DNA of 64,000 nt from a virus. The notes beneath the pieces are model-generated. The model had not been told where the DNA came from. It was given only the letters and a program-made list of their open reading frames with translations, and did no database searches. Positions 10,153-51,389 of the stretch are shown here, piece by piece. The first letter of the stretch is position 1. The number at the start of each line of letters is the position of its first letter. The position numbers and the translations under genes were made by a program. Where the stretch lies: positions 1-64,000 of the IMG/VR virus record IMGVR_UViG_3300032132_000248; one strand, 5' to 3'.

Positions 10153-13100
10153 CTAAAAAGTTAATAACCCTAAAATTTGATTTACTGGTGCAAATGCGCC
10201 AGTGAATTTGTAAACTTTACCTTTATACTTAAATACAATTCCTTCTGATGGAACTATAGAATCTAACCCGCCTATTGAATTTAATTTACTTACTTGTAGT
10301 TTTAATGCTTCCAATTTCTTAATATCTTTGGCGGTTTTTACTTTAGCTATTGCTCCAATTACATTCTTTCTTATTTTTTGTACTGCATCATCTGGAGATG
10401 CGGCTAAGTATCCACTGATATTTTTTAAAATTTCAGTTCCTACTGCAAAAAATAAAACTTCAAAAGGCCTCATATTTTGTTTTACCATTTTTTGATGATC
10501 TACCTTATCTGTAGTTAATACCCAATCCAAAAAATCAGGATATTTCTTAAAATCTTTTTTAATCATTGGTATTTTATATGATTTATCAAAGAATGCCCAA
10601 CGTTTTACTAAAGATTTATATGCTTTATTTGTTATTTTTACTCTAAATTGTTTTTCTGCGTTAAAAATAAATTCTTCCCAATACCTTTGATGGTAAAGTG
10701 CTAAAGTATCTTTATCTTTTAATGCATATTCTTTTTGTAATTTACTTAACCTACTTAAAAAAGTTTTCTTCTTAGCATCAAAGTTTTGTGATTTAGGAAC
10801 ACTTAAAAATTGTGGTTTACCAATTTTATAATGTTTTTGTATATGTTGATTAACTTGTTTAATCATACCAGCTAACATTCTTGCAGACCCTTTAGGCTGT
10901 CCTATAGGATTTCCACTATCATCATATTCTAAAGTACCGTGAAATACTATTTGTGCTTTATCATAATCTATGACATTTGATGACTTAGGCCACATAACTT
11001 CGAGATTCATCCATCTCTTACCATTACCAAAAACCTTTTCCTTTTGAGCATCCGATAACGCTCCTATAGATTTACTTAAATCTTTCATTGCAAAAACAAA
11101 TGCATTTTTAATATCACCCCTACCTGCAAATTTAGAAGCAACACCTTTAGTAGTCATAGCCTTTTCACCAAAATTCTTTAATTGTCCTTTATTTCTGGCT
11201 GTAACTAATTTTCCATCTTTCCAACTAATCATTAAATTTTGACCATCTAATTTTTCTGTAACACCATCTTCTCTATTAAGATTTCCGCCTAATCCATCAG
11301 TAATTATTTTCTTTAAATCTCCAAATGTCAAATCTTTATCATCAAATGGATGATTCATATGTCCATATGCTCCACCTTCAATTAATAAATCTAAATCCTC
11401 AACTATTGATATTTTTTCAGACAAACTTTTTACATATTTTTTAGCCGCCTTATCTCCTTTATTTTTAGCCACCCATTGAACTGCACTTTTACGACTTATT
11501 GTTTTCTTTCTACCTTTTGGATTGGGGTTTTTTACTGTATCAGGTGCGTTCGCCATAAACTTTCCTGCATCTTTCTTTTCTGCATCTGATTTCTTTTGTT
11601 TCCGAGCTTTATATGCTCTATAAGCCCCAAATGAAACTCCCGCCGCCATTGTTCCAACACGACCAAAAGCTTTTACATAAGGTGCTGTCAACCCTGTCGC
11701 TGCTCCCACTGCAGTTAATACTAAAAACTTAGTTCCCATTTCACCACTAAATAACTGTGCAAATGAAACATCTCCAACCGCCGCCGCTGTCGCTGCAGCT
11801 GATAAATCTAAATCATATTCTGGGTCTCCGATAAAAGTCATCTTTGTCCATGCGTAAGTTACCGCTGCTGCCGCACCTATACCCATTACTCTTTTTAGTT
11901 TTGGATGTTCTCTGAGATAATTATCTAATTTAACTAAAGACTTTTCTTTCTTTTGCCCAAATTTAGTTGTTGCTAATTTCTGTGCTATCTTATCAGGTAC
12001 ATAATTAATAATTTTTTGATATGCTTTAAATCCTTTCTTAGCGCCCTCAAATACTTTATCCACACTAAAATCATTTAATTTAGCAACAGAAAAAGTATTC
12101 TTATTCATCATAGACTTTCTAACTTTAGATAATGGTTGTTTTGCCCTTTTAGACCAATCTTTTAGAAAGTTATTAAACTTGACTCCCTCTTCTAAAGTCA
12201 TACCTTCTATTATAACCGATTCTGTTGCAGATTCTTGTTTCTTCCATCCACCTACAACATCGCCCATTGAATATGAGTGTGATGCACCTGGTGTTACTAT
12301 AGCAACAGTTTTGCCATCAGATTCTATTTCTTTTATTTTTTTATCCATTTGAATATCACGAGCTTTATTGAAAGATTTAGCTGATTTTCCAGCTTTACCT
12401 TTAACTAAACTACTTAAATGGTCTTTACCATATTTCTTTTCTGCCCATTTAAAATCTTTATGTCCAGACTCAAAATCACCAGGATATGACATTAGATATA
12501 ATAATTGTTTATCAGCTTCGTAATCTGCATCACCCTCTAATGATTCAACTTCTCCATTACCTGATCCTGGTGGAAATCCACCTTTATACCCAGCATCTCT
12601 TAATGCTTTTTTATTTTGTTTAGTTAATTTATCTGCGGGAACAGAATCCTCATCACCTTGACCAAACATATTTGCAAACATAAAAGCCTGTTCTTCCTCT
12701 TTTATATTTCCTGTTTCGTCTGCGATTTGGTCATATATTGGCGCGTCTGGATTTGATATATCTGAATTTTCTCCATCCCAAGTTTTTACACAATCTATTT
12801 TATCACCAAACTCTTTCTTTAATTCTTTAACTATATATTCTTGTTCATCTCCACCACCACCTGCAAATGGATCATCATCACTTTTACCACCTTCAGTCAA
12901 AAAACAAACTTTCTTTTTTGCATCTAATGCATCTTTTACTTTCTGTTTTACTTCAGGAAGTACCTTATTCTCTATTGCCCAATTTTTTGAATGTTCTATA
13001 GCATAAATATCCGTATCTTGTTCTTCATCATATACCTTATGACCATGATTTGTTCCAATTATACTACTTCCACCCTCTGTTTGATGTATATAATTGTCTC

Positions 13101-16100
13101 TCCAACGATTTTCTTTAAAACCTTCCTCTGTGTTATCTCCAAAATCTGGAGCATTATCATAATCTTTATAATTTAGATTAAAAGGATCTCTTTCTTTTTT
13201 ACCTGATGGATTATCTGGTTCTACATTTTTAGAAGTTTTATGTTTACTTATATAATCTTGTTGAGCGTCTACCGACTTATCCGTCCAGTATTCTTCGCCA
13301 GCTTCTTTTAACAATTCTTTATTCCACCACTCTTTTGAAAACAACTTTGATTCTTTTAAATCAGTATTTTCTGTTTCATCATCTGCTCCAGGTAATACTG
13401 GTTCTTGTACTTGTACTTTTAACACATTATCTTCTAAACCTAACCACTTAATAACTTCAAATCCTAAATTAGACAATACAAAATTTAATCTTTCTTTATA
13501 CTTGTTATGTAAATTACGTTCACTCTGTCTACCCTTTATTCCTACAGTTCCATAAGAAGGTGTTGGCATAAATCTATAATTTAATGTATAATCAAAAGCT
13601 GGGTCATGTGCTTCATCAGCAAGCATATAATTTAAAACTGTCCATCCTGTTTCTTTAAAAATAGAATCTAACCACTCAGTAGATCCTTTTTTATAATCGC
13701 CAAAACCTTTATAATAATGAGCGGGCCCATCATCTATAGGAGCATTAGTCTGAAAAGTTGCTTCATTCAAATATTTTGATACATCTACATCTACTAAAAA
13801 TTCATTTATAAGTTCTTTTGTTATTACAACATTTTCACCAAATAATTTACTAAATTTATTAGTCATCATATTATAAACACCTTTATCAAAATAACCAAAG
13901 AATTTTTTAAATCTCCGTTCCCTATCATCTGCATACTTTGGTGAACCTAGTAATTGTCTCATAGCAGTACCACTTACTTCCATACCACCTGCCTGTATAG
14001 AAAAATGTGGAGCGGTTAAAATATATCCATGTTTATTATGACCCACTAAATTTTTCTTATTCTTTTTATAATCTTGATAATAAGTTTTTTCGCCACCCTT
14101 TTTTGTACCACCAGATAATCTATCAGCATCTTTCTTTCCAAAAATATAAACTACTGCAGTAGTATCTTCTGTAAACTTTTTAAGTGTATTTACCGCGACA
14201 TATGGTTGTCTTTCTTTAACAATTTTATTAGATGGAATTCCCATTTTAAGCATATGTCGTTTCTTCTCTTTAAAATTCATTGGATGTTTAGGTGGTTTTT
14301 TGATGTCTGATGTAGTTATATACGCATCATCAAATTGTTTCTTCATCCACTCATATACTTTTTTATGATGAGGTCCAAATGGTTGAAACCTACCTGCATA
14401 TATTCCTACTATTTTTTTAATCTTTGAAGTTTCCTCTTTAAATAATTTATCAGCTTTCCAAATATCTTTTGGATCTTGTGCCATATCTAAAACTTGTATT
14501 CTAGCTTTCGTAACTCCATGTTTTGCTGTTAATATTTTTATTATCTTTTTAGCTTCGGAATGAGATTTGGCTTTTGTATAAAGTATATCTTCTTGTCTCT
14601 TACCTGGAGGAATACCCCAAATTACAAATTCTTTTTTACTTTCATTAATATTTTCACCAAGTAATCTTAATAATTGTGTCATTACTAATGGATTGTTAGA
14701 AAGAAATGTTTGTAATTTACTTATATTCTTAGCATAATTTTTTGGTAATACGTTTTTATCAATTAATGTTTTCAATGCCTTTTTCATCTTTGGTTTATTT
14801 ACAAATTCCAAAATAAAATCTTCATCAACTTTTAAACCACCCGTATCCATTTTATCACTAAATTTTTTCAATTTATCATAAGACCTAAATTGTTTTAACT
14901 TTCTTTGTTTTGCTATCTTCATGACATCTACATTCTTAACTCTCATATGTTGTTTTACTATATAATAAATATCAACTGGATTACCACCCATTGATTTAAT
15001 CCACGTACGATATTTCTTAACTAATTTAGCAGAAACATGTTCATGTCCATAATGAGTTGGATGTCCTTTTTTTGGATGAATGCCTGCGGTTTCATCTTTA
15101 CCTATATCGTGGAATAATGCAGCCAGTGCCAAATCTATATCACCTGGATTCAATTTCATTGCTCTATTAACTACAGTTATAGTATGTTTTAAAACATTAC
15201 CCTCTGGATGAGCATCTTTTCTCTGCGTTACCTTTTTTAAATCCATTACTCTCTTTTTTAAATCAGATGGTAATGCAGTATATAAATCTCTGAATGATTT
15301 AATTGGTCTAATTGCTATTTCATTTAAAAATTTCTCTTTCTCCTTTGTTTTTATTGCTTTACCTATTTCAGGCCCTTTTAAATCTTTAGAAACATCTTTA
15401 CTACCAACAGATAATTTAAATTTAGCCATCTTTACAACATCTGACTCATTACCAATTAATTTTCCATATTCCTTTATTTGAGCAATTGTTAAATTTGTTT
15501 TTTCTTGAAACTTCTTAAACATATAAATTTCTTCTGATTTAAAATTCTGTAAAGATACTAAAAATAATACATTTGTAGATTCCTTAACTGTATATCGCAT
15601 GGAATTTAATTTATTACCTAATTTACCAGGATTATTATCTTTTAACAAATATGCAAGTTGTACTATATAATCTTTAGAATTTATAAATTTTTTATTTATG
15701 CTAAGTCCTGGCAATATTTGTTGTAACATTCCAAGATTATTAGCCAATTGAAGATATTTCTTTGGTGATTTTGCTTTAATCAAACTCTTTACAAATTCTT
15801 CTCTAATTCTTTCACTACTTACTCCATTTAAACTTGGGTTTTTCTTTAATGCTGCAAATGTATCTACATGCATCGTTCCACCAAGTGCTGCATTAAATCG
15901 TAGTGCTCGTAGTTTTCTTAATGGGTCTTCATCGAATCTTTCATCTGCTAATCCTACTGTACGAACTTGTTTCTTTTTTAAATCTTTAATTCCACCTACC
16001 AAATCTACTATAGTATTTTTATCAATATCATAAAATAAAGCATTGATAGTAAGATCTCTACGTTTAACATCTCCTTTTATATCAGTAAAATCTACCGCAT

Positions 16101-17544
16101 CTGGTCTCCTACCTTTACCAATATCTTTTCTGAATGTAGCAATCTCATGTCCATTAACCATAACAACACCAAAAGATTTTCCAACTTCTACTGTTTTAAA
16201 TTTACCTTGTTTTGCAATAGCTAATACTTCGTCTGGTTTGGCGTCAGTTGCCATATCAAAATCTTTTGGACTTTTACCCAAGATGGCATCTCTCACAGCT
16301 CCACCTACCACATAAAGTTGTTTTCTATTCTTTTTAAATAACTTATGTATTTTTTTTATATCTGCTGGTATATTTAATTTTAATTTTTGTTTAGCTTCAT
16401 CTATCGTACGATATTGGTCATCTTCTCTTTCTTTATCTAATTTTTTCTTGATTTTCCTAACTTTTTTAGGATCGGGTGCACCAGATATAGTTCCATCTCC
16501 AGCAGTTATTCCAATAAACTCTTTAACAATTTTTTGTTTTTCAATCCACTTTTTAGCTTGTCTGCTTTTTATTGGTTTTTTAATAAATTTACCAATACCC
16601 TTTTTCACCAACATATTAAACTTTTTCTGTGCTTGTTTTGGATTTAAAGTAGCATTATTATCAACTAACATAAAATTAGAACCACCAAACATCCCTTGAA
16701 AATATGCCATATTTTTTTGTACATTATTCCAATATTTTTCTACAAGTTCAGAAGGTAAAATTCTATCTCTTAATTTATTTCTCATTTGTGCAACTTCTAA
16801 TGAGGTATTTACAAATACCATATAGGTATCATAACCTAAATCAATCAATTTTTGTCGTTCTTTCTTAACATCTTTAAATTTATGACCAGTTCCATCTATA
16901 ATAACTCCAAGTCTACCTTGTGAATATAACTTTAATCTTTGTTTACTCAAGGCTTTAGCATGTTTTCTAACACCCATATGTGCACTATAACTTGGGTCTG
17001 TAATCTGTCTAAATAAATCATCTGGCATATTATCTAAATCCGTTGTACCAAAGTATTTTTTCAGAAAATTTTCTAATTCTGTATCTTGATTAACAAGTTT
17101 TAATCCATAAGCAGAAACATTTACTTTATCTGGTATTCCAAACAATCCACCAGCAACATATGACTTTCCACTTCCAGGACCACCTGCAAGAAAAACTGCT
17201 TTAAATATACCTGGGTCATTTACTCCTTCTCTAATAGAACGATTTAATCTACCATAAACCCGCTTCTGTCGCTTTCTCATACCCAACCCTGTAGGTATCC
17301 AATTTTTAGGCCACTCTTCAGTAACTTCTTCTTTATCAAAAATATTAGTTTTGGGCATTAATCTGAACTTTAAAGCTGGTCTACCGTTTATTAGTAAATC
17401 ACCTTTTTCATTCCAATCTATTTTCTTAACGACTACCTTTTTGTTTTTAAATTTTCCCATCTTGACTGTATCACCAATCTCTATAGGTAAATCTACACTC
17501 TCATCCAAAAAAGGTTTAGTTAACCATTCAGTTAATTTATCCAT
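10153..17544 (-). CDS. Giant polyvalent protein: kinase, CCA-type NTase, HD, NMNAT-like, membrane and ligase domains
   Basis: 2463 aa. Order seen: targeting-like N-terminus ending FLDES (1-15); SH3/KOW-like patch (20-62); P-loop kinase, GGPGSGKS at 121-128; class II polymerase-beta-like (CCA/poly(A)) nucleotidyltransferase, YVVGGAVRD (411-419), DFD (428-430), RRDLTINALF (495-504); HD domain, LFHDIGK (810-816); a small module; nucleotidyltransferase of the NMNAT/cytidylyltransferase type, GRFQPFGPHH (1051-1060) and SGTAMR (1191-1196); unknown 1262-1390; a TraB/ChaN/EreA-like region (about 1490-1765, tentative); hydrophobic helices (1885-1975); covalent-nucleotidyl ligase domain, EKLDG with K2098, LEVMWP (2181-2186), EGIVFK (2434-2439). 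Sites such as INES, LNEA, LKES, LKEA, IIEG and LIEG fall between modules. The parts resemble RNA end repair and NAD synthesis. Packaging and processing are inferred. Confidence 0.9.
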   Translation of the reverse strand: MDKLTEWLTKPFLDESVDLPIEIGDTVKMGKFKNKKVVVKKIDWNEKGDLLINGRPALKFRLMPKTNIFDKEEVTEEWPKNWIPTGLGMRKRQKRVYGRLNRSIREGVNDPGIFKAVFLAGGPGSGKSYVAGGLFGIPDKVNVSAYGLKLVNQDTELENFLKKYFGTTDLDNMPDDLFRQITDPSYSAHMGVRKHAKALSKQRLKLYSQGRLGVIIDGTGHKFKDVKKERQKLIDLGYDTYMVFVNTSLEVAQMRNKLRDRILPSELVEKYWNNVQKNMAYFQGMFGGSNFMLVDNNATLNPKQAQKKFNMLVKKGIGKFIKKPIKSRQAKKWIEKQKIVKEFIGITAGDGTISGAPDPKKVRKIKKKLDKEREDDQYRTIDEAKQKLKLNIPADIKKIHKLFKKNRKQLYVVGGAVRDAILGKSPKDFDMATDAKPDEVLAIAKQGKFKTVEVGKSFGVVMVNGHEIATFRKDIGKGRRPDAVDFTDIKGDVKRRDLTINALFYDIDKNTIVDLVGGIKDLKKKQVRTVGLADERFDEDPLRKLRALRFNAALGGTMHVDTFAALKKNPSLNGVSSERIREEFVKSLIKAKSPKKYLQLANNLGMLQQILPGLSINKKFINSKDYIVQLAYLLKDNNPGKLGNKLNSMRYTVKESTNVLFLVSLQNFKSEEIYMFKKFQEKTNLTIAQIKEYGKLIGNESDVVKMAKFKLSVGSKDVSKDLKGPEIGKAIKTKEKEKFLNEIAIRPIKSFRDLYTALPSDLKKRVMDLKKVTQRKDAHPEGNVLKHTITVVNRAMKLNPGDIDLALAALFHDIGKDETAGIHPKKGHPTHYGHEHVSAKLVKKYRTWIKSMGGNPVDIYYIVKQHMRVKNVDVMKIAKQRKLKQFRSYDKLKKFSDKMDTGGLKVDEDFILEFVNKPKMKKALKTLIDKNVLPKNYAKNISKLQTFLSNNPLVMTQLLRLLGENINESKKEFVIWGIPPGKRQEDILYTKAKSHSEAKKIIKILTAKHGVTKARIQVLDMAQDPKDIWKADKLFKEETSKIKKIVGIYAGRFQPFGPHHKKVYEWMKKQFDDAYITTSDIKKPPKHPMNFKEKKRHMLKMGIPSNKIVKERQPYVAVNTLKKFTEDTTAVVYIFGKKDADRLSGGTKKGGEKTYYQDYKKNKKNLVGHNKHGYILTAPHFSIQAGGMEVSGTAMRQLLGSPKYADDRERRFKKFFGYFDKGVYNMMTNKFSKLFGENVVITKELINEFLVDVDVSKYLNEATFQTNAPIDDGPAHYYKGFGDYKKGSTEWLDSIFKETGWTVLNYMLADEAHDPAFDYTLNYRFMPTPSYGTVGIKGRQSERNLHNKYKERLNFVLSNLGFEVIKWLGLEDNVLKVQVQEPVLPGADDETENTDLKESKLFSKEWWNKELLKEAGEEYWTDKSVDAQQDYISKHKTSKNVEPDNPSGKKERDPFNLNYKDYDNAPDFGDNTEEGFKENRWRDNYIHQTEGGSSIIGTNHGHKVYDEEQDTDIYAIEHSKNWAIENKVLPEVKQKVKDALDAKKKVCFLTEGGKSDDDPFAGGGGDEQEYIVKELKKEFGDKIDCVKTWDGENSDISNPDAPIYDQIADETGNIKEEEQAFMFANMFGQGDEDSVPADKLTKQNKKALRDAGYKGGFPPGSGNGEVESLEGDADYEADKQLLYLMSYPGDFESGHKDFKWAEKKYGKDHLSSLVKGKAGKSAKSFNKARDIQMDKKIKEIESDGKTVAIVTPGASHSYSMGDVVGGWKKQESATESVIIEGMTLEEGVKFNNFLKDWSKRAKQPLSKVRKSMMNKNTFSVAKLNDFSVDKVFEGAKKGFKAYQKIINYVPDKIAQKLATTKFGQKKEKSLVKLDNYLREHPKLKRVMGIGAAAAVTYAWTKMTFIGDPEYDLDLSAAATAAAVGDVSFAQLFSGEMGTKFLVLTAVGAATGLTAPYVKAFGRVGTMAAGVSFGAYRAYKARKQKKSDAEKKDAGKFMANAPDTVKNPNPKGRKKTISRKSAVQWVAKNKGDKAAKKYVKSLSEKISIVEDLDLLIEGGAYGHMNHPFDDKDLTFGDLKKIITDGLGGNLNREDGVTEKLDGQNLMISWKDGKLVTARNKGQLKNFGEKAMTTKGVASKFAGRGDIKNAFVFAMKDLSKSIGALSDAQKEKVFGNGKRWMNLEVMWPKSSNVIDYDKAQIVFHGTLEYDDSGNPIGQPKGSARMLAGMIKQVNQHIQKHYKIGKPQFLSVPKSQNFDAKKKTFLSRLSKLQKEYALKDKDTLALYHQRYWEEFIFNAEKQFRVKITNKAYKSLVKRWAFFDKSYKIPMIKKDFKKYPDFLDWVLTTDKVDHQKMVKQNMRPFEVLFFAVGTEILKNISGYLAASPDDAVQKIRKNVIGAIAKVKTAKDIKKLEALKLQVSKLNSIGGLDSIVPSEGIVFKYKGKVYKFTGAFAPVNQILGLLTF

Positions 17545-40007: not shown

Positions 40008-40622
40008 TTATTTACCAAATGAAATTAAAGATAATCTTGTTTCTTTTGCATAATCAGCAACATGACTAACAAAATGTGGAAATCTATATTTCTTATGATT
40101 ACTAAAAACTGCACGATTAAACTTTGGAAAGATTGGAATAACTGAATCACTATCATCTTCCAATCCTAAATATGTTATTCCGCCCCAATCCCAAACCCAT
40201 CTTTTATGAAAATAATACATACATCCAATATCACCTACCCAATCGTCCATATGTTGTCTGTAATGACACCCTTCATCCATCTTATAACATCTAATATCAA
40301 ACTTAGTTAATTCTGACTCTGATAATTTATTAAACACTTCAATAAAATGATTTTCAAATATTATTTCAATATTCTCATTGGATTCCAATTCCTCATTTCT
40401 CCAAAATTTTGCAGTATATACTTCGTCTTCGGCCGGGAAAAATGGGGATCCTGTTTTACAATGACCATATTTACCACTTCCATATTTTTTATCCCTATAT
40501 TGATCAATTAATTCCCAATTCTCATGTTCTGTAAATATATATTCTAGTTGATGGGCAATATCTACTGGTAAAAAGTCATCAACAATTACATATCCATTTT
40601 CTACAAACTTATCAAGTTTCAT
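40008..40622 (-). CDS. 2OG-Fe(II) oxygenase (prolyl-4-hydroxylase-like fold)
   Basis: 204 aa from ATG 40622, which overlaps the DegT-type gene by 11 nt. The metal triad is HMD (H124, D126) plus H183 or H187, and TRLSLISF supplies the 2OG Arg (R196). VIVDDFLPVDIAHQLE at the N-terminus is typical of this oxygenase group. A second oxygenase lies at 25540. It could hydroxylate a sugar or lipid; the substrate is unknown. Confidence 0.75.
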   Translation of the reverse strand: MKLDKFVENGYVIVDDFLPVDIAHQLEYIFTEHENWELIDQYRDKKYGSGKYGHCKTGSPFFPAEDEVYTAKFWRNEELESNENIEIIFENHFIEVFNKLSESELTKFDIRCYKMDEGCHYRQHMDDWVGDIGCMYYFHKRWVWDWGGITYLGLEDDSDSVIPIFPKFNRAVFSNHKKYRFPHFVSHVADYAKETRLSLISFGK

Positions 40623-41784
40623 TACAAACTCCCGATATAAAATCAATATCTTCTAAATCTATAGACGGGTGGGTTGGAACAATAAAACCCCTTTCATAAA
40701 TTCTATTAGCAACTTCTCCATTAAATTCACCGTATCTACTTGTCCAAAATTTATGTTTTCCAAGATTTCCATGTGACCAAACTCTTGTTTCAATACTATT
40801 TTTGTTACATTCTTCAATTACTGATTTTCGATGTTCATTTGATTCTGCCAATATCCCAATATGTAAACTAACTGGTGTAGTATTTTCACAATTTTGTAAT
40901 TCAAATCTATCGTTTAACATTTGTGTATATCGTATATGATTTTTATTTCTTTTTGTAAATATTAATCTAGCCTTTTCTAATTGTCCTAATCCAATATATG
41001 CCTGTAAATCTGTTGACCTTACATTAAAACCAGGTTCATTGAATATAAATGGGAAATTTTCATCATTTCTATATTCATCATTAACAACATCTTTTACCCA
41101 ACCGTGTGATCTTAACTTTAACAATTCTTCATATAAAAACTTATCATCTGTATTAATAAACCCACCTTCTATTGTAGATAATTGATGTCCAAAATAAAAC
41201 GAAAAGGATGACATATCTCCAAGTGTTCCAACATAACTTTCATCATCGTACTTAGCACCTACAGATGCACAAGAATCTTCAAGAATATAACATCCGTATT
41301 TTTCTTTTAAATACAACAATTCTTTTCGTCTATGTGGGACACCAAGAACATGAACAAAAATAAAACCATCTATATCACCTCGTTTCAAATAATCTTCTAC
41401 TATATTTAAATCAATATTATAATTACCATCTTCCGCGTCAACCATGATTGGTTCAATTCCAAATTGAATAAATGGACTTAATGTAGTAGCCCATCCACAA
41501 GATGGAACTAAAAATTTATTATTTTTAAGTTTACCCGCATTTAATAGTGAATAAACCATTAATAAATTGGCAGACGAACCACTATTAAGATAAACTGAAT
41601 AATTAGTTCCAATAAAATCTGCCCACTTCCGTTCAAATTGCTTTGTAACTTTTCCCATAGTAAGTCTAGGATTTGTTCGTAACCAATTTATTAGTGAATC
41701 TATATCATTCTCATCTATAGTATCACTTGCAAGTGGATATTTCCATAATGATTGTCCTGTTAAATCTAACGATTTATTTTTCAT
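40612..41784 (-). CDS. DegT/DnrJ-family PLP enzyme, ColD-like (His replaces Lys)
   Basis: 390 aa. SGSSANLLM (68-76) for phosphate binding and EDSCASVGAKY (169-179) for the PLP ring are typical of sugar aminotransferases, but the Schiff-base Lys position is His (H200 in FYFGHQLSTIEGG). This substitution and the STIEGG context mark the sugar 3-dehydratases such as ColD, which make GDP-3,6-dideoxy-4-keto sugars by deoxygenation at C3. Together with the GMD-like gene it suggests a GDP-3,6-dideoxyhexose. It overlaps E1 beta by 11 nt. Confidence 0.85.
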   Translation of the reverse strand: MKNKSLDLTGQSLWKYPLASDTIDENDIDSLINWLRTNPRLTMGKVTKQFERKWADFIGTNYSVYLNSGSSANLLMVYSLLNAGKLKNNKFLVPSCGWATTLSPFIQFGIEPIMVDAEDGNYNIDLNIVEDYLKRGDIDGFIFVHVLGVPHRRKELLYLKEKYGCYILEDSCASVGAKYDDESYVGTLGDMSSFSFYFGHQLSTIEGGFINTDDKFLYEELLKLRSHGWVKDVVNDEYRNDENFPFIFNEPGFNVRSTDLQAYIGLGQLEKARLIFTKRNKNHIRYTQMLNDRFELQNCENTTPVSLHIGILAESNEHRKSVIEECNKNSIETRVWSHGNLGKHKFWTSRYGEFNGEVANRIYERGFIVPTHPSIDLEDIDFISGVCNET

Positions 41785-42304
41785 TATAATAATCGCCCCA
41801 CTCGATTAATAATGTAGAACAATCTGTATTATATGCATTTTCAAATTCTGGAAATATTTCTTCGGGTTCATTTAATAACACAACATTAACCTCGCGCAAC
41901 ATATGTTTAAAAGGCTCAGTATAATCATTTGTATGTTGAACTCCACCATTTAACGGACTTGTTGAACCAATAGAAGTTCTCATTATTACTTTGGGTTTAA
42001 AAGTATTCTCAGTCATATGTTGCATTTTATCCAAGTGATTTACTAATGCATCCATACATCTCATAAAAAAATCAAATCTTGGAAAACAACTAATGGGAAC
42101 TAAACCATTCATCGCCATACCTGTGCTCATTCCCATTTGTATTTCTTCAAATACAGGTAATTCAAGTCTTTTTTCTTCAGGTAATGTATTCAATGTATTA
42201 TAAATTGCATTACCACTATACAAAACTGATTGTCCCATGAAGATTGTATCATCTTTTTCAGATAACCACTCCATACTTCTTATTATTTCATCTTTATATT
42301 TCAC
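41774..42304 (-). CDS. TPP-enzyme subunit, E1 beta/transketolase pyrimidine-binding domain
   Basis: A 176-aa protein equivalent to the pyrimidine-binding half of 2-oxoacid dehydrogenase E1 beta: FMGQSVLYSG, LPVFEEIQMGMSTGMAMNG with the activating Glu, and FPRFDFFMRCMDALVNHL. The C-terminal transketolase_C domain is absent (a full E1 beta is about 325 aa), so it is a reduced form. Its partner (alpha, 43190-43777) is two genes upstream. Similar pairs attach two-carbon units to sugars, for example the AviB1/AviB2 proteins of avilamycin synthesis. That function is inferred. Confidence 0.8.
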   Translation of the reverse strand: MKYKDEIIRSMEWLSEKDDTIFMGQSVLYSGNAIYNTLNTLPEEKRLELPVFEEIQMGMSTGMAMNGLVPISCFPRFDFFMRCMDALVNHLDKMQHMTENTFKPKVIMRTSIGSTSPLNGGVQHTNDYTEPFKHMLREVNVVLLNEPEEIFPEFENAYNTDCSTLLIEWGDYYNEK

Positions 42305-43190
42305 TACAATACTCCTTAATTTTATCTTCTATGTATTCACCAAATAACTTATTTGCACCGTCACTTGGATGAGTTGTATCTATTCCATCACCCCACCCTA
42401 ATGGAATATCATTATAGATACTAAACTCTGCATTTCCACCCATTTCAATTTCTGAGTTTTCATAAAAAATAAACTTATCAAAATCTATCATATCCCAATA
42501 AATTTTTGACATTGGATAAACATCTTTCATCAATGGTTTATCACAAGACTTAAAATATATTTTATCCAATTCACATTGTCTAATTTCTTCTCCTATTCGA
42601 TGATGAAAAATATTCTGCCATACCGTAAAAAAATAATCTATATTTCTTTCTTTACAAAATCCCTGTAAAATTAAAATTTCTTTTAAAGTATTAACAAACA
42701 TACTTTCTTTTGAATAATATTTTTTATACCACTCCCTAATAAATTTTAAGTAATTATCACGGCCAGTATCTCTCTCTAATCCACCAGTTTTTAAAAACGC
42801 CTGATTTGGATATGGTATTTTATTTAATTCTTCTCTACTATGTCGTTCTTCTATACCACCATTATCATCTATAAACATTATTCTATCTACTCCACCATAA
42901 TCATATGCAGTATCTACAATTTGACTATATTCAATAATATCTTCTTTGTTTATAAGAATATCTGCACGATTATAATCAGTCAACATATTAACTACTAAAA
43001 TAGACTCTGGTTCAATACCTGATTGAATAAGTTTATTAATTTCTGTAATCAGTCTAAATATTATTTGAGTATTACCGCCACCTGGATTTGAAAGAAGAAT
43101 CGAGTTCTCGCCCAAACTTTTATTAATCGGATTTAACCAAGCTGGTCTACCAAAACTACATCCAGATCCTATAGCGTATTTGTATTTCAT
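42294..43190 (-). CDS. SGNH-like family, member S2
   Basis: 298 aa from ATG 43190 (TAATG with the upstream stop; an earlier in-frame start would lie inside it). Block I is AIGSGCSFGRP, the central block is VVNMLTDYNRAD and the C-terminal block is THPSDGANKLFGEYI. It lies between the two TPP-enzyme subunits. The family suggests an acyl transfer or hydrolysis role; the substrate is unknown. Confidence 0.6.
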   Translation of the reverse strand: MKYKYAIGSGCSFGRPAWLNPINKSLGENSILLSNPGGGNTQIIFRLITEINKLIQSGIEPESILVVNMLTDYNRADILINKEDIIEYSQIVDTAYDYGGVDRIMFIDDNGGIEERHSREELNKIPYPNQAFLKTGGLERDTGRDNYLKFIREWYKKYYSKESMFVNTLKEILILQGFCKERNIDYFFTVWQNIFHHRIGEEIRQCELDKIYFKSCDKPLMKDVYPMSKIYWDMIDFDKFIFYENSEIEMGGNAEFSIYNDIPLGWGDGIDTTHPSDGANKLFGEYIEDKIKEYCSEI

Positions 43191-43777
43191 TAAAATAAAA
43201 CCCAATTTCCTGTTCCGTGATGTGGATAATCACTTTTATATTGATAATAAATTACATCATCAGGTACATCTTGTTTTCCACCCCAAGTTTCATCAACTGG
43301 GGTATTTGTAGAAAGATTATTATCTTCAAGAACAAATTGAAGTGGTAAATCAAAATTCTTTGCATATTTATATGATTCATGAAAAATACCACTTTCAAAA
43401 GTCATATCTCCAATGAAACACCACACTTTATTCTTCTCACCTTTCATCTTAATTGATTTTGCAACACCCAGTGCTATTGGTATAATACCACCAACAATTG
43501 CAGATGAATAAAATTTAGGATTTTCTGAATATACACTCATACTCTTACCACGAACAATTAAATCCATAAGTGTATCTCTTGGAATACCATGTAGTAATGC
43601 GTGATAATGATTTCTCCAACTACTGAATACCCAATCATCTTTACCAACATCTTTGAATATTTCTATAAGTTGTTCTTCATTATTAGAACTTAAATGAACT
43701 GGTGCTGTAATCTCACCTGCTTCATATCGTTCTTTGACTTCTGTTTCAAAATCTATTAAAAATTGTTTATCTATCAT
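43190..43777 (-). CDS. TPP-enzyme subunit, E1 alpha-like
   Basis: 195 aa from ATG 43777, which has TTGGAG 8 nt upstream; a TTG 12 nt earlier would place that site inside the gene. The TPP-binding motif runs from GDM (123-125) to EDNN (151-154), about 30 residues apart, as in E1 alpha, with Met replacing the usual Gly of GDG. FHESYKYAKNFDLPL between them is also typical. It is shorter than a full E1 alpha (about 330 aa). It is expected to form the active site with the beta subunit at 41774. Confidence 0.8.
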   Translation of the reverse strand: MIDKQFLIDFETEVKERYEAGEITAPVHLSSNNEEQLIEIFKDVGKDDWVFSSWRNHYHALLHGIPRDTLMDLIVRGKSMSVYSENPKFYSSAIVGGIIPIALGVAKSIKMKGEKNKVWCFIGDMTFESGIFHESYKYAKNFDLPLQFVLEDNNLSTNTPVDETWGGKQDVPDDVIYYQYKSDYPHHGTGNWVLF

Positions 43778-43803
43778 TTGTCTCTCCAATTTAATCCAGA
43801 CAT

Positions 43804-44574
43804 TTATAATTTTTCTTTTTTTAAAAATTTATATAATTCTTCTGACCACATCTCATGAGATTTTCTATTTGGGTGCCCATGTATATGTTCTTTTGCATCT
43901 TCAAAATCATCAAAAATAAATTTCATAAACTGTTCCATACTTTTATAATCTTCAGTCATAACTATATTATCAAAATCTAACTCTTTATATAATTTTGGGT
44001 GATCCTTACAAGGAGTAGATATTTTTCCCTCATTTTCATAATTCAAATCTTCATCTTCTCTAAAATGATGTCCAAAAGTATCAAAAAACAAATAATTTAA
44101 ATTATAAAATTTAAAAAATGATTGTAAATAAACCATATCTAATGTAGTTTTATATAACATCTTATTTATATCAAAATATTCTCTATGAAAATTATTCCAC
44201 CATTTATTTGGTAATCCATATTCAATATCACCATGTTCATAATCAAGACAATATGAAGCATAACATTTTTCCCAATCTTGTTTAAAATTACTCCACCATT
44301 CCCACCTGTCTGATATTGTCCATCCAATTATAAATAAAGTTTCATTAATTTTATCTTTATTATCTACCACCCATTCTATTGTTGACCTTAATATTCTCTC
44401 ATTGGATGACCCATTTTCTGCTATATTAATAACTTCAATATTTAATTTTTCACCTAAAACTTCGGGCCATTGACCGCGTGGTTTTCTCTTGTGAGGAAAA
44501 GGGGGAAACACTTGATCCTCTTGTAAACCTTGTCCCCATGTCCAACTATCTCCGTTTGTAAATAAATATTTCAA
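43804..44574 (-). CDS. SGNH-like family, member S3
   Basis: 256 aa from TTG 44574 (TTGA overlap with the upstream stop, GGAGAGA about 8 nt before). Block I is FTNGDSWTWGQG, nearest to canonical GDS; the central block is FIIGWTISDRWEW; the C-terminal block is GHPNRKSHEMWSEELY. This member most clearly resembles GDSL/SGNH hydrolases. Its catalytic Ser and C-terminal His are present. Role inferred as glycan O-acylation or deacylation. Confidence 0.65.
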   Translation of the reverse strand: MKYLFTNGDSWTWGQGLQEDQVFPPFPHKRKPRGQWPEVLGEKLNIEVINIAENGSSNERILRSTIEWVVDNKDKINETLFIIGWTISDRWEWWSNFKQDWEKCYASYCLDYEHGDIEYGLPNKWWNNFHREYFDINKMLYKTTLDMVYLQSFFKFYNLNYLFFDTFGHHFREDEDLNYENEGKISTPCKDHPKLYKELDFDNIVMTEDYKSMEQFMKFIFDDFEDAKEHIHGHPNRKSHEMWSEELYKFLKKEKL

Positions 44575-45095
44575 CTATTGTCTCTCCAATTTAATATAGG
44601 GTTTTTTATAGGCCACTCTATACCAATTCTTTCATCATTCCACTTCAACACATCTTGATCCATCCAATCTACATAATCATTTGGATATGATTGTGTATAA
44701 TGAAATAAACATTCTTCACTTAAACACAAGTGAGCATTTAAAAATTCTGGTGGAACTAAAACACTTAAATGATTTCTTTCTGATATAATAAAACTATCCC
44801 ACTTTAAATAATTTTCGGATTCTGGTCTGTTATCCACTACTACTAAATAAATCTCGCCCCACACACAACTAATATTTTTCCAAGTCACATTATCTCCGTG
44901 TAATCCACGAAGAACATTTTTTCTTGAACGAGTAAATTTAGATATTTTCCATTCGTTTCCTTCTGGTAATATCTCATTTTCCTTTTCCCAAAAAGTCCAC
45001 ATCTCACCTCTATAATCAAAAAAGGGATCGGGTTTTAATATCTTCACTTCAGGTAATACCTCTGAAGTTTTTATTTCTACTTTAAAATTACTCAT
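44571..45095 (-). CDS. RmlC-like sugar 3,5-epimerase (cupin)
   Basis: 174 aa from ATG 45095, chosen because GGGGGAAG lies 5 nt upstream and the start forms ATGA with the upstream stop. Motifs FDYRGEMW, KNVLRGLHGD, VVVDNRP, SVLVPPEFLNAH and CLFHYTQSY match dTDP-4-dehydrorhamnose 3,5-epimerase-type cupins. The usual HYQ after RGLH is replaced by GD, so the substrate may differ; GDP-4-keto sugars would fit its neighbours. Confidence 0.82.
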   Translation of the reverse strand: MSNFKVEIKTSEVLPEVKILKPDPFFDYRGEMWTFWEKENEILPEGNEWKISKFTRSRKNVLRGLHGDNVTWKNISCVWGEIYLVVVDNRPESENYLKWDSFIISERNHLSVLVPPEFLNAHLCLSEECLFHYTQSYPNDYVDWMDQDVLKWNDERIGIEWPIKNPILNWRDNS

Positions 45096-46090
45096 AATAC
45101 TTCCCCCCAATACTCTAACAAATCATCACATATTTCTTTCAACCCTTTAGTTGGTTTCCAACCCGTTTTTTCTCTAAACTTCGTACTATCAGGTATTTGT
45201 AGTGTGATATCTGTTGGTCTAATTCTTTTTGGATCCGGTAATTTTATAAAAGACTCTGGATTTTTAGATTTAGAAATCAACATATCTAAAGCGTCACCAA
45301 TAGTACAAGTTTCATCGCCCCCTATATTATAAACTTCACCATAATCACATTTATTTACTGCTAACCAATAGGCGTGAACAGCATCATCTATGTGATTATA
45401 TGTTCTAACTGAATCTAAATTACCATGATGTATTTCATACCAACTACCTTCTTTACCAAAATCTTTTTTCTTTTCATATTGAACAATTTGGTGTGCAAAT
45501 GAAGATAGTGCGAATCTCTTACCTCGTCTTTTACCTTCATGAGAAAACATACGAGTAATAATAACTTTCATATCAAATGCTTTATGATAATACTGAGATA
45601 TTAAATCGTGTCCTACCTTTGATATTGAATATGGATTAGCTGGTCTAATATAATTATTTTCTGTAATTGGTATTTCATCTTCGGTTGGATTACCATAAAC
45701 TTCTGAAGATGAACAACTCAATATAATAGGATTACATAACTTTCTCTCCTTTGCTAAACGTAATTCTTCTAATATATTTGTAGTTCCTATAATATTTGTT
45801 GTTAGGGTACTAACTGGTGTAAGAAAACTTGATTCTGGAAAACTTTGAGCAGCAAAATGATAAACTATATCTGGTTTAGATATTTTTATCATTCTAGCAA
45901 TACTACCTCTATCTAATAAATCACATTCTTCTAATATAACTCTATCATCACCAAATAAATGTTTAATATTATCTTCTTTACTTCTCCACCTTCGAGTGGC
46001 AAAGATTTCTACATCTGGAACATTTTTTAATAAATAGTCAGCCATATGACTGCCGACAAAACCTGTTATTCCTGTTATTAAAACTCTCAT
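45092..46090 (-). CDS. GDP-mannose 4,6-dehydratase/GDP-6-deoxymannose reductase family SDR
   Basis: 332 aa. TGITGFVG Rossmann motif, FAAQSFPESSF, SSSEVYGNPTEDEIPIT, intact YSISK (YxxxK), TRMFSHEGKRRG, GNLDSVRTYNHIDD and RIRPTDITLQIPD. The combination is typical of the GMD/RMD group; the FAHQI and TGWKP features lean toward RMD. With ColD-like, fucose-synthase-like and GME genes nearby, it points to GDP-mannose as the hub sugar. It overlaps RmlC and SGNH member S4 by 4 nt each. Confidence 0.8.
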   Translation of the reverse strand: MRVLITGITGFVGSHMADYLLKNVPDVEIFATRRWRSKEDNIKHLFGDDRVILEECDLLDRGSIARMIKISKPDIVYHFAAQSFPESSFLTPVSTLTTNIIGTTNILEELRLAKERKLCNPIILSCSSSEVYGNPTEDEIPITENNYIRPANPYSISKVGHDLISQYYHKAFDMKVIITRMFSHEGKRRGKRFALSSFAHQIVQYEKKKDFGKEGSWYEIHHGNLDSVRTYNHIDDAVHAYWLAVNKCDYGEVYNIGGDETCTIGDALDMLISKSKNPESFIKLPDPKRIRPTDITLQIPDSTKFREKTGWKPTKGLKEICDDLLEYWGEVL

Positions 46091-46794
46091 CTATATTTTT
46101 CCTTATAGAAAGAATATAACTTATCTGCCCATTCTATTTGAACTTCTGCGTTTGGATGATTACATTCCGTTACTCTATTTCCAGCACTACCCAAAAATGG
46201 TTCTTGATAAAAATAATCAAAATCAACTAACTTCGCAGTATTGGTAGTTTTAATTAATTTACCTTCAGGATCTCTAGCTCCTTCAAAAAAGATATATTTA
46301 ATATTGTTAATTTTAAAAAACGATTGTAATGATATTACATATCTACAAGTTATTTCTGATGCTGTTCTATTATCAGGAATATAATTAAAATTAAATTTAT
46401 CTTTATCTACTGAAGTATCTCTTTCGCTATGTTCCCATGCAGTATACCCATCGTGCCCAAATTGTGAACCAAACCAATGACTCTTATTTCCATAAAATGT
46501 GCTTAAAGTCTCAGTATCTAGCCAAGTTCTACTTACCCATATTTCATTTCTAACTGGATATGATAATTGTAATACAAAGAAAGTATCTTTTAATTTATTT
46601 TGGTTTTCAGAAATCCAATCATACGTAGTCCTAAATATTCGTTGATTAGAACCACCACCTTCAGATTGATTAATATCTTCTGCACCAAACTTATCGGCAA
46701 GAAATTTGGAATATCGTTCTTTTTCTGGATTATCTAAACCACAACCTTCGGTGTAACTACAACCATTACTATATACATATTTTATATTGTCCAT
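46087..46794 (-). CDS. SGNH-like family, member S4; gene after the structured leader
   Basis: A 235-aa protein. Block I is YSNGCSYTEGCG, the central block is FVLQLSYPVRNE and the C-terminal block is NHPNAEVQIEWADKLY. It is the first gene downstream of the promoter and attenuator-like leader at 46795-46946. Its likely Shine-Dalgarno (AGAGGA) is part of the terminator hairpin, so both transcription and translation of this gene could be controlled by that structure. Confidence 0.65.
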   Translation of the reverse strand: MDNIKYVYSNGCSYTEGCGLDNPEKERYSKFLADKFGAEDINQSEGGGSNQRIFRTTYDWISENQNKLKDTFFVLQLSYPVRNEIWVSRTWLDTETLSTFYGNKSHWFGSQFGHDGYTAWEHSERDTSVDKDKFNFNYIPDNRTASEITCRYVISLQSFFKINNIKYIFFEGARDPEGKLIKTTNTAKLVDFDYFYQEPFLGSAGNRVTECNHPNAEVQIEWADKLYSFYKEKYR

Positions 46795-46856
46795 AAAACT
46801 AAAAATCCTCTGGTTAAAGAGGACACTATTTCAAGTGCCTCCGTGTTTATAGTCAT
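46782..46856 (-). CDS. Possible 24-codon leader ORF overlapping the S4 start
   Basis: ATG 46856 to TAA 46784-46782 encodes 24 codons (MTINTEALEIVSSLT... ending FLVLWTI). Its stop overlaps the first codons of S4, and its start codon is in the 3' strand of helix P1 of the leader. No convincing Shine-Dalgarno precedes it. It may be a coupling or leader peptide, or chance. Confidence 0.35.
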   Translation of the reverse strand: MTINTEALEIVSSLTRGFLVLWTI

Positions 46857-46917
46857 TTTATTGTGGTTGGTTAGGACTTTCAGGGTTGTTTACCCGAGTT
46901 AGTACCACATGACTTCA
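46795..46917 (-). ncRNA. Structured 5' leader, riboswitch/attenuator-like
   Basis: On the minus strand a nested fold is readable. P1 pairs 46909-46914 (AGUCAU) with 46851-46856 (AUGACU). P2 pairs 46904-46908 (GUGGU) with 46863-46867 (ACCAC), with a six-base bulge at 46857-46862. P3 (46892-46899 with 46876-46886) is ACU-C-GGGU facing ACCC-UGAA-AGU. An internal loop carries CUAA on both sides. Downstream, GAGG-CACT (46834-46841) can pair with AGTG-T-CCTC (46819-46827), competing with the terminator. This is an aptamer-plus-expression-platform layout. I recognise no known class, and the ligand is unknown. Confidence 0.6.
46797..46823 (-). terminator. Intrinsic terminator in the leader
   Basis: TCCTCT (46823-46818) and AGAGGA (46811-46806) form a 6-bp stem with a TTAACC loop, followed by a T-run and AGTTTT up to the S4 start. 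Four of its 5' arm bases also belong to the alternative antiterminator helix, so only one can form at a time. Confidence 0.6.
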
Positions 46918-46946
46918 TATATAAATATCTCACTAATAAATTACAA
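46918..46946 (-). promoter_or_regulatory. Putative sigma70-like promoter for the leader
   Basis: On the minus strand, TTGTAA (46946-46941) and TATATA (46923-46918) are 17 nt apart, each matching 4 of 6 consensus bases. The predicted start would be about 46911, just at P1 of the leader. It overlaps the stop of the upstream gene. Confidence 0.4.
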
Positions 46947-49332: not shown

Positions 49333-49400
49333 CTATTATCTCCAACTGGTTTTTCATCAAATACTTTCTTTATATATTCAAGTTCTTCTTTTCTAATCAT
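49329..49400 (-). CDS. Possible 23-codon coupled ORF
   Basis: ATG 49400 overlaps the stop of S5 as ATGA and reads 23 codons, MIRKEELEYIKKVFDEKPVG followed by DNS and TGA. The stop overlaps the TTG start of the sulfotransferase-like gene. It may be a small gene or only a coupling device. Confidence 0.4.
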   Translation of the reverse strand: MIRKEELEYIKKVFDEKPVGDNS

Positions 49401-50065
49401 TTTAAAAAATTATGTTTTATTTTATCATATAAAAGTTCACTAACGTTCCGTTTAGATTTTGGTCCTGGATGATCATCACCAATTGAAATCTTATCTATTT
49501 GTAGATATTCGCTAGGTGTATATGAATTGGTATAGTTATGATAAGGTTTATCAAAATAAAATTTATTACAATCTAATAATTTTTTATGTTTTTTAATTTC
49601 AGATAAAACCTTACTGTCAGCAAAAAAGTGATAATTATTTATGTTTAAATTCTCCAAGATATTATGAAGTCCTATAACATAATTTACAGCAGTAGTCGTA
49701 AATAGTTCATGGCCAGTTGAATTTTTATCACCAATGTTAAATAAATCCCAAAGATAGGGATGATCTTCCCAGGTAATAAATTTATATCTACCATCGGAAA
49801 AATATTCTCTTCTCGGTTCAAATGACCAACAAATTATTACCATCAAGTCTTTATAATATTTAACATTTAAATTTTCTAAATATTCTATTGTTGTTCTATA
49901 AATTCTATCATTACCACCACCACCATATGCTAAATTTGTATAACTATCTAATACTCCAAGTTTTCTTGCTAATAACGTCCCCCAATTATCTATAGGAGGT
50001 TCGTCCTTCATAGTCACGCTCTCAACAGTAAAACTACAACCATTTACTAATAGTTTTTTAACCAC
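49397..50065 (-). CDS. SGNH-like family, member S5
   Basis: 222 aa from GTG 50065, placed 6 nt after GGAGG; the first 51 codons of the longest open frame lie entirely inside paralogue F and lack sense. Block I is LLVNGCSFTVES, the central block is IICWSFEPRREYF and the C-terminal block is DHPGPKSKRNVSELLY. The GTG start overlaps the end of paralogue F by 8 nt. Confidence 0.65.
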   Translation of the reverse strand: MVKKLLVNGCSFTVESVTMKDEPPIDNWGTLLARKLGVLDSYTNLAYGGGGNDRIYRTTIEYLENLNVKYYKDLMVIICWSFEPRREYFSDGRYKFITWEDHPYLWDLFNIGDKNSTGHELFTTTAVNYVIGLHNILENLNINNYHFFADSKVLSEIKKHKKLLDCNKFYFDKPYHNYTNSYTPSEYLQIDKISIGDDHPGPKSKRNVSELLYDKIKHNFLK

Positions 50066-51389
50066 CCATAACCTCCGAAATTTCATTCCATATATTTTTA
50101 TGATCTTGCATTTTATAATTTGCAAAATGATTTTGGTTGTGTATAAGTATATCTTCCATTTCATAATACCATTTATGTATTTCTTCTTTTGACATACTAC
50201 ATAATCTTTTAACTTCATCCAATATCATAAAAAGTCTTTTATCATTATCAACTTCGTTATCATAAGACTCATCAATCCAGGGACTAAATGTTTTAAATCC
50301 TATCTCTTTCAACTTATCAAGAAAAAATGGATTAGATACTATTATAAATGGAACTAAATTACTAATAGGTTTAAATATTTTCTCACTCATATAAATACAA
50401 TCTTCATAATAGCAACTTTCTGTAACTATATTAAAATAAATTCTTTTGTATTGATGTGAAAAATTAGACCATTGACCTACCATTCCACCAATGATCTCGC
50501 CTTCCTTATCATATATCCAATTTGCATCTATATCACCATCAGCATCAATAGGATATAATGGTTTAATCTTTTTTACTGCATCACTGACTATCTCATTCTG
50601 TTTTTTATCTTCTATAAAATCACTAATTTTATTTGGCCAGACGCCACCAAAAGCACTATCTACTTTTTCTGCTCCAAGACTTATGATTCCCTTATCATCT
50701 AATCCCATTTCATAAATCATTGCAATTAACGCCAATCTATATTCTCTGATTACTCTATTATAAGATAAAAAATACTTTTCCCTTATAGTATCTCTCATGT
50801 CATCTAAATCTTTTTTACTAACGAATGATTGTTTATATGGTTGAACTTTATCTATTCTTTTATCATAATTATTTGTCAGAACAAGATTATATATTTCATT
50901 ACTACCTTCCAACATATGATTTGCTTCTAAAATATGTATTTTTTCTTTTGTTAATGTTGGCATCTTATCACAAAAAGTTTTATATTGTTTTTTACCATTT
51001 AGATTACTTGCCGCGAATAAAACTTTATTTGCAGGTATTTTACGTTTAAATAATTCATTATGCAATTCTTTATAATTTCTGCGCGTAACATGACCTTCTT
51101 GTATATAACTTATCAAAATATATCCATTTTTGTTTCTAACTAAATCTACTATCCTTTCATTAGTAAAATCCAAAAAAGTTTTTTCATCACCTTCATCATA
51201 CAACCCAAGATATGCGTTTAGCCCAATACAACTTATAGGTAAGATAAATTGAATATCATCGTTTAAATCTGAAAAATTTATTTCATTTAATTTAAAATTA
51301 GCATCTGGTTTCAAAGGTCCCAAATCATTTTCATATGCATATCCTTTTTCATGTCTGACTTCACCTAATAAAATATTAATTTGTCTCAT
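50058..51389 (-). CDS. DESYD-family putative glycosyltransferase, paralogue F
   Basis: 443 aa. Block 1 is FLSYNRVIREYRLALI; block 2 has IYFNIVTESCYYEDC, YMSEKIFKP, VPFIIVSN, IGFKTF and DESYD (373-377), 66 residues from the C-terminus. The N-terminal half differs from other copies. It overlaps paralogue G by 4 nt, so the two are adjacent tandem members. Substrates unknown. Confidence 0.72.
   Translation of the reverse strand: MRQINILLGEVRHEKGYAYENDLGPLKPDANFKLNEINFSDLNDDIQFILPISCIGLNAYLGLYDEGDEKTFLDFTNERIVDLVRNKNGYILISYIQEGHVTRRNYKELHNELFKRKIPANKVLFAASNLNGKKQYKTFCDKMPTLTKEKIHILEANHMLEGSNEIYNLVLTNNYDKRIDKVQPYKQSFVSKKDLDDMRDTIREKYFLSYNRVIREYRLALIAMIYEMGLDDKGIISLGAEKVDSAFGGVWPNKISDFIEDKKQNEIVSDAVKKIKPLYPIDADGDIDANWIYDKEGEIIGGMVGQWSNFSHQYKRIYFNIVTESCYYEDCIYMSEKIFKPISNLVPFIIVSNPFFLDKLKEIGFKTFSPWIDESYDNEVDNDKRLFMILDEVKRLCSMSKEEIHKWYYEMEDILIHNQNHFANYKMQDHKNIWNEISEVMGG

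Follow-up and report, generated by a model that had tools for sequence, protein, structure and literature searches.

A candidate pseudoknot riboswitch family in the leaders of phage nucleotide-sugar gene clusters

A 2022 review (PMC9971707) called the scarcity of sugar riboswitches surprising, with the glmS ribozyme riboswitch being the only class that directly regulates sugar metabolism. Marine metagenomes and cyanophages contain the wcaG RNA (RF01761), an orphan riboswitch candidate with unknown ligand, and manA RNA (RF01745) is a candidate leader found before sugar-metabolism genes in marine bacteria and cyanophages (PMC2864571). In the preQ1 riboswitches, a small pseudoknot aptamer frees a terminator in one case and buries the Shine-Dalgarno sequence in others (PMC11625349). 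Here we analyzed a leader, referred to as W, in a window of 64,000 nucleotides (the whole stretch of DNA examined) that derives from a 70,894-base virus record (IMG/VR IMGVR_UViG_3300032132_000248) of a T4-type phage. The portal and terminase of this phage matched T4-type PHROGs, and its nearest GenBank terminases were those of Microcystis phage Mel-JY01 (54%) and Flavobacterium phage immuto (53%).

W and its relatives resemble wcaG as leader RNAs located before nucleotide-sugar/exopolysaccharide genes in T4-like phages; however, wcaG differs in length, sequence and its three-hairpin fold, and the wcaG region of cyanophage S-SM2 gives no hit with our covariance model R2. The wcaG model matched neither the window nor any of L002, L004, L008, L015, L016, L017 and L074 (L-numbers are our own labels), with cyanophage S-SM2 as the positive control scoring 93 bits. 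In S-SM2 (L150, 2987-3082), wcaG lies directly before a nucleotide-sugar epimerase gene, the phage also has a transketolase-like sugar gene, and the same kind of regulatory place is occupied there by an unrelated RNA. The manA RNA shares the place before sugar genes but has no Rfam match to any leader of our family, while glmS shares the control of a sugar pathway but is self-cleaving and has an unrelated fold. In its inferred working mode the family would come closest to the preQ1 riboswitches, which also have an A-rich linker crossing the pseudoknot (AUAAA in the W family), and its pairing and covariation agree, by computation only, with a pseudoknot that hides a Shine-Dalgarno sequence or frees a terminator. 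In contrast, the helices and core are different, the gene context is sugar rather than queuosine, and there is no Rfam match; membership in the preQ1 class is not supported. In searches against Rfam 15, nothing in the window reached the gathering score, and the members tried gave only scattered weak hits at chance level (E up to 10); preQ1 and all other Rfam 15 riboswitch families did not reach the gathering score. In the literature searched on phage riboswitches, nothing closer than wcaG was found.

Leader W occupies positions 46795-46940 on the minus strand (146 nt); no other real non-coding gap of the glycan cluster exceeds 100 bp. A second large computed gap in the cluster, at 49333-50057, is an artefact of ORF selection, with an ORF at 49397-50218 covering most of it. 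An earlier note, made from sequence alone, had claimed that this was the only such gap lacking a gene of normal size, that three helices, an antiterminator and a terminator could be read on the minus strand, and that the leader matched no known class. These claims held, the last one against Rfam 15; all elements named there are readable from the minus-strand sequence, and every listed pairing was found. The aptamer domain (46846..46914; this and all further coordinates of W and its cluster are on the minus strand) consists of P1, P2, P3 and a core, ending with AUAAA, and is scored by covariance models R1 and R2 at 78 and 75 bits (E about 1e-12). P1 is formed by AGUCAU (46909..46914) and AUGACU (46851..46856), P2 by GUGGU (46904..46908) and ACCAC (46863..46867), and P3 is a hairpin, CGGG-UAAACAAC-CCUG (46881..46896), in which 46896-46893 pair with 46884-46881, adjoining the invariant AAAG. 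The core AAAGUCCUAACCA (46868..46880) contains AAAGWCCNANCC, conserved in all aptamers. When folded alone, W has an MFE of -29.0 with z = -1.0, and 30 of 200 shuffles fold equally well, which is not convincing. Since single-sequence folding is no better than shuffles, the status of W as a real element rests on comparative evidence.

Using DNA-pattern and covariance-model searches, we recovered this leader from another 20 IMG/VR phage records and from one phage contig binned in a metagenome-assembled genome (MAG), i.e., 21 virus records including W and one MAG contig (L128), with 17 distinct aptamers. The close relative L002, reached via the downstream DUF6071 gene, has diverged enough to be informative, with UAUGAU/AUCAUA as P2 vs GUGGU/ACCAC in W. 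Patterns from the shared core led to L004, L006, L008, L010, L015-L019 and L022. A first covariance model, built from nine aptamers, then detected L043, L074 and L083 in loci fetched only for encoding a related dehydratase, and these three are therefore independent of the core pattern; the same model confirmed L100, L102, L106, L111, L116 and L128 from further pattern scans. Scanning whole records with a second covariance model added L148 and found exactly one copy per carrier record scanned. GTDB places contig L128 (NZZP01000015.1) in a Gammaproteobacteria MAG; over 5.8 kb it shares 97.7% identity with the IMG/VR phage contig L015, and it is a phage contig binned into a bacterial genome. Further pattern hits (L005, L007, L009, L011-L014, L020, L021, L023-L031) are incompatible with the structure and seem to be chance matches, and L109, L112 and L126 scored at chance level. 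No homologue was detected among 50,697 GenBank phage records searched with the W, L008, L015, L017 and L148 leaders. A weak whole-record scan with the covariance model found nothing in cyanophages Bellamy, SynMITS9220M01, P-TIM68 and S-SM2 or in phages Mel-JY01 and immuto, a first look having given no candidates at all; a tRNA search was also negative. The sample is limited to 17 aptamers from related clusters, and the patterns fixed part of the core and part of the P1 3' strand.

Covariation was analyzed on a hand alignment of 15 rows and 55 columns, partly manual and checked against the raw sequence, using an R-scape-like test (G statistic with APC correction) whose null re-places the observed substitutions on the tree. 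The best five of 1,485 column pairs were all helix pairs: P3.3 (E=0.002), P2.3 (0.026), P2.5 (0.11), P3.1 (0.7) and P2.1 (1.0). Double changes were present in 11 of the 19 proposed pairs, compared to a mean of 2.6 and a maximum of 8 in 500 tree-based nulls, and 268 of 285 cells were paired (null mean 197, maximum 228). When the 3' partners were slid by 1-3 columns, pairing fell from 94% to 29-45% (14-row version of the alignment). RNAalifold also predicts P3, and P3.1-P3.3 all covary. The comparison thus establishes P2, P3 and the existence of a conserved RNA family. P1 is almost invariant, with AGUC in 17/17 aptamers and GACU in 16/17, the latter partly imposed by the search patterns, and covariation neither supports nor contradicts it; L148, found without the P1 constraint, retains 3/4 of the AGUC/GACU pairs. 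Lack of covariation or disrupted pairing in relatives would have refuted the earlier note, and the opposite was found. Its observation is confirmed and its interpretation supported, with corrections to P3 and the promoter: P2 held, P1 is present but too invariant for the covariation test, and P3 failed in the proposed register, where GGGU/ACCC and the ACU/AGU extension are unsupported, while the hairpin itself held as CGG(G)/(C)CUG. An additional, sixth pair in P2 (G-C in some members) was rejected as well; that base covaries instead with the base preceding GGN'GG.

That covariation is part of a 6-bp pseudoknot, missed by the earlier note, between the core and the 5' arm of the antiterminator. 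With AAAGWCC-N-A-N-CC-n as the core sequence and n'GGN'GG as the segment after P1, CCN/N'GG and CCn/n'GG give six pairs with a two-base bulge. In W the strands are CCU-AA-CCA (46868-46875) and CGGAGG (46838..46843). Across the 15-row alignment, N-N' is U-A (7), A-U (3), C-G (2) or U.U (3), and n-n' is C-G (8), G-C (4), U-A (1) or A.C (2); the remaining four pairs are C-G throughout and never vary. Among the members with mismatches, L015, L022 and L043 have U.U at N-N', and W and L074 have A.C at n-n'. Single-pair p-values were 0.0095 for PK.3 and 0.0031 for PK.6; corrected for all column pairs (E=14 and E=4.6, respectively), neither is significant alone. The first half of the pseudoknot was proposed only after inspecting the sequences, while the CCn/n'GG half was proposed independently by RNAalifold on a plain MAFFT alignment fitted to no model. 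Since N' = U also produces a mismatch in the antiterminator, changes to U at N' are explained by the pseudoknot and not by the antiterminator. With two covarying pairs, four invariant C-G pairs and the half found by RNAalifold, we consider this pairing well supported.

Two hairpins that share a strand follow P1, as the earlier note had noticed, and the alternative is kept in nearly all relatives. The first, the antiterminator, has GGN'GGC as its 5' arm; in W it is GGAGGCACU/AGUG-U-CCUCU (46818..46842), the MFE structure of the 3' half at -11.5 kcal/mol, with an equivalent hairpin in relatives. In most members the second hairpin is an intrinsic terminator; in W, UCCUCU-UUAACC-AGAGGA followed by UUUUU (46801..46823; stem 46823-46806) has -10.1 kcal/mol when the GGAGG arm is blocked, was also found by a terminator scan, and precedes the ATG at 46794. 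Across the 14 leaders folded, with energies computed for isolated 3' halves, the antiterminator was favoured by 0.5-2.2 kcal/mol (5.2 in L016); forbidding the GGN'GG arm yields the second hairpin, and a U-run follows the latter in 13/14. L111, which carries an additional hairpin and a further terminator-like stem, was not counted. The fold as drawn for L004 and L017 runs into the U-run, so the printed tail seems shorter. The hairpins are mutually exclusive, as shown by comparison and in silico only. The likely Shine-Dalgarno sequence lies in the terminator 3' arm (AGAGGA in W, as claimed earlier), with the start codon usually right after the U-run. An early idea, taken from the MFE of W, that AAAGUCCU pairs with the terminator 3' arm was rejected, as L002 and others have AAAGACCU. 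In L016 the hairpin is present without a U-run, which possibly points to translation control. The most divergent member, L148, has neither hairpin; AUAGGAGGCAAAUG follows directly and its GGAGG is the Shine-Dalgarno sequence itself, so the same pseudoknot would probably cover it and block translation, an inference from sequence only. A riboswitch platform is expected to compete with the aptamer fold, and this is met in silico by the pseudoknot and antiterminator sharing GGN'GG.

The leader is always found directly before genes of a nucleotide-sugar cluster. In W these are a DUF6071 (SGNH-like) protein (46087..46794; PF19547, E=1.2e-7), an NDP-sugar 4,6-dehydratase/epimerase (45092..46090; GDP_Man_Dehyd, E=6e-69), which is the first gene in several relatives, an RmlC-like 3,5-epimerase (44571..45110; PF00908), and a thiamine-diphosphate (TPP) enzyme split into an E1-alpha-like part (43190..43789; Pfam E1_dh) and a transketolase-pyrimidine part (41774..42304; Transket_pyr just under the curated cut-off, E1-beta-like in NCBIfam). 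The cluster also encodes an RfbH-like aminotransferase, which is below NCBI's cut-off. The 4,6-dehydratase, RmlC-like epimerase, split TPP enzyme and RfbH-like aminotransferase lie together at 40612-46090, and the combination recurs in relatives. RfbH-like aminotransferases together with TPP enzymes recall branched-sugar pathways such as that of yersiniose, which is a lead only. The first gene encodes DUF6071 in W, L002, L004 and L006, the dehydratase in L008, L017, L018, L043 and L083, another epimerase in L015, L019 and L022, the RmlC-like protein in L100, L102, L106, L111, L116 and L148, the transketolase-pyrimidine half in L016, and probably a B12-binding radical SAM protein in L074. RmlC-like and TPP-enzyme genes are present within 13 kb downstream of 18/18 leaders checked, the TPP enzyme being either E1-like, usually with a transketolase-pyrimidine partner, or a split transketolase. 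In L074 (746-2281, plus strand), the B12-binding radical SAM gene and a split transketolase replace the E1-type TPP enzyme. Because the RmlC-like/TPP context is constant while the first gene varies, a pathway metabolite fits better than autoregulation by a single protein. From this context we infer a pathway metabolite as the most natural ligand, leaving open which one; the suggestion of the earlier note that a sugar nucleotide or cofactor is sensed, and the metabolite-riboswitch nature of the leader, likewise remain inferences. As expected of a riboswitch, the aptamer is conserved, it has helices that covary, and the genes whose 5' leader contains it are functionally related.

Taken together, W is likely a member of an undescribed cis-regulatory RNA family and most probably an OFF-type pseudoknot metabolite riboswitch, in which ligand binding, the OFF direction and ligand identity are inferred. 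In the proposed mechanism, P1-P2-P3 and the core AAAGWCCNANCC would constitute the aptamer, stabilized by a ligand for which an intermediate, a product or a cofactor of the sugar pathway is the most likely candidate. The core CCN-AN-CCn would then close the 6-bp pseudoknot with the downstream nGGN'GG and remove the 5' arm of the antiterminator, the terminator would fold, with its U-run before the ATG and the Shine-Dalgarno sequence in its 3' arm, and expression would stop. Without ligand, the antiterminator would form and the genes would be read. As inferred from the topology, members of the terminator and Shine-Dalgarno types predict the same sign, the pseudoknotted aptamer being OFF. A bolder reading, offered tentatively as it may well not hold, is a phage riboswitch class sensing an intermediate of a TPP-enzyme-dependent sugar pathway, for instance a nucleotide sugar, with one pseudoknot serving termination and, in divergent phages, Shine-Dalgarno occlusion. 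With the pseudoknot counted in, the RNA measures only about 75 nt; it precedes a sugar-nucleotide pathway in every carrier examined, and there is a natural set of candidate ligands. If the riboswitch reading is true, T4-like phages regulate glycan clusters by a metabolite-sensing RNA, with wcaG in the corresponding position in a cyanophage.

A phage or host RNA-binding regulator, and not a small molecule, could instead bind and stabilize the pseudoknot, thereby switching the platform. Phages use RNA-binding translational repressors (T4 RegA, gp32 and gp43), the leader is present in one copy per phage, and a conserved core suits protein binding too. We nevertheless consider this unlikely; the first gene differs among members, so that simple autoregulation by its product does not fit, and the equivalent place in S-SM2 is filled by wcaG, itself a riboswitch candidate. 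Less plausible still is a constitutive element without sensing, i.e., a promoter, an mRNA-protecting 5' structure and a leaky terminator that sets a fixed expression level. The promoter-like block right before P1, the nearly invariant P1 and the closeness in energy of terminator and antiterminator would suit such an element; however, an unpaired core of ~18 conserved bases and a pseudoknot competing with the antiterminator would be superfluous in it, and L148 retains the aptamer without a terminator.

Attenuation by a translated leader peptide can practically be ruled out. W has a possible 12-codon frame, MKSCGTNSGKQP, beginning just before P1; however, no short leader ORF is conserved among relatives, with L043 lacking an ATG in its leader and the others having unrelated frames or none near P1, and P2 and P3 covary as RNA. 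A chance fold in AT-rich DNA, for which the z of W alone could be cited, is contradicted by the covariation and all the comparative results, and hardly remains tenable. The preferred reading remains that of a metabolite riboswitch.

Immediately upstream of the aptamer, W carries a promoter-like AT block, GATATTTATATATGA (46915..46929), that abuts P1, its promoter function being inferred. The earlier note had proposed a promoter pair with 17-nt spacing (TTGTAA-17-TATATA). The -35 part is not conserved, and only a TATTTATATATA-like block abutting P1 is kept, in 18/18 leaders and with small variations. In the rest of the window this block (46909-46920 in W) is not overrepresented; it could represent a phage-type promoter that lacks a -35 box. 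The idea of a palindromic promoter (CTTATATATAAG) was dropped, there being no excess of such sites in the window. As for the remainder of the window, the glycan cluster encodes several diverged DUF6071 (PF19547) paralogues, at 46087-46794, 43804-44574 and 49397-50218, all without a PHROG match, and the longest open frame, of 2,463 codons, is located at 10153-17544 on the minus strand.
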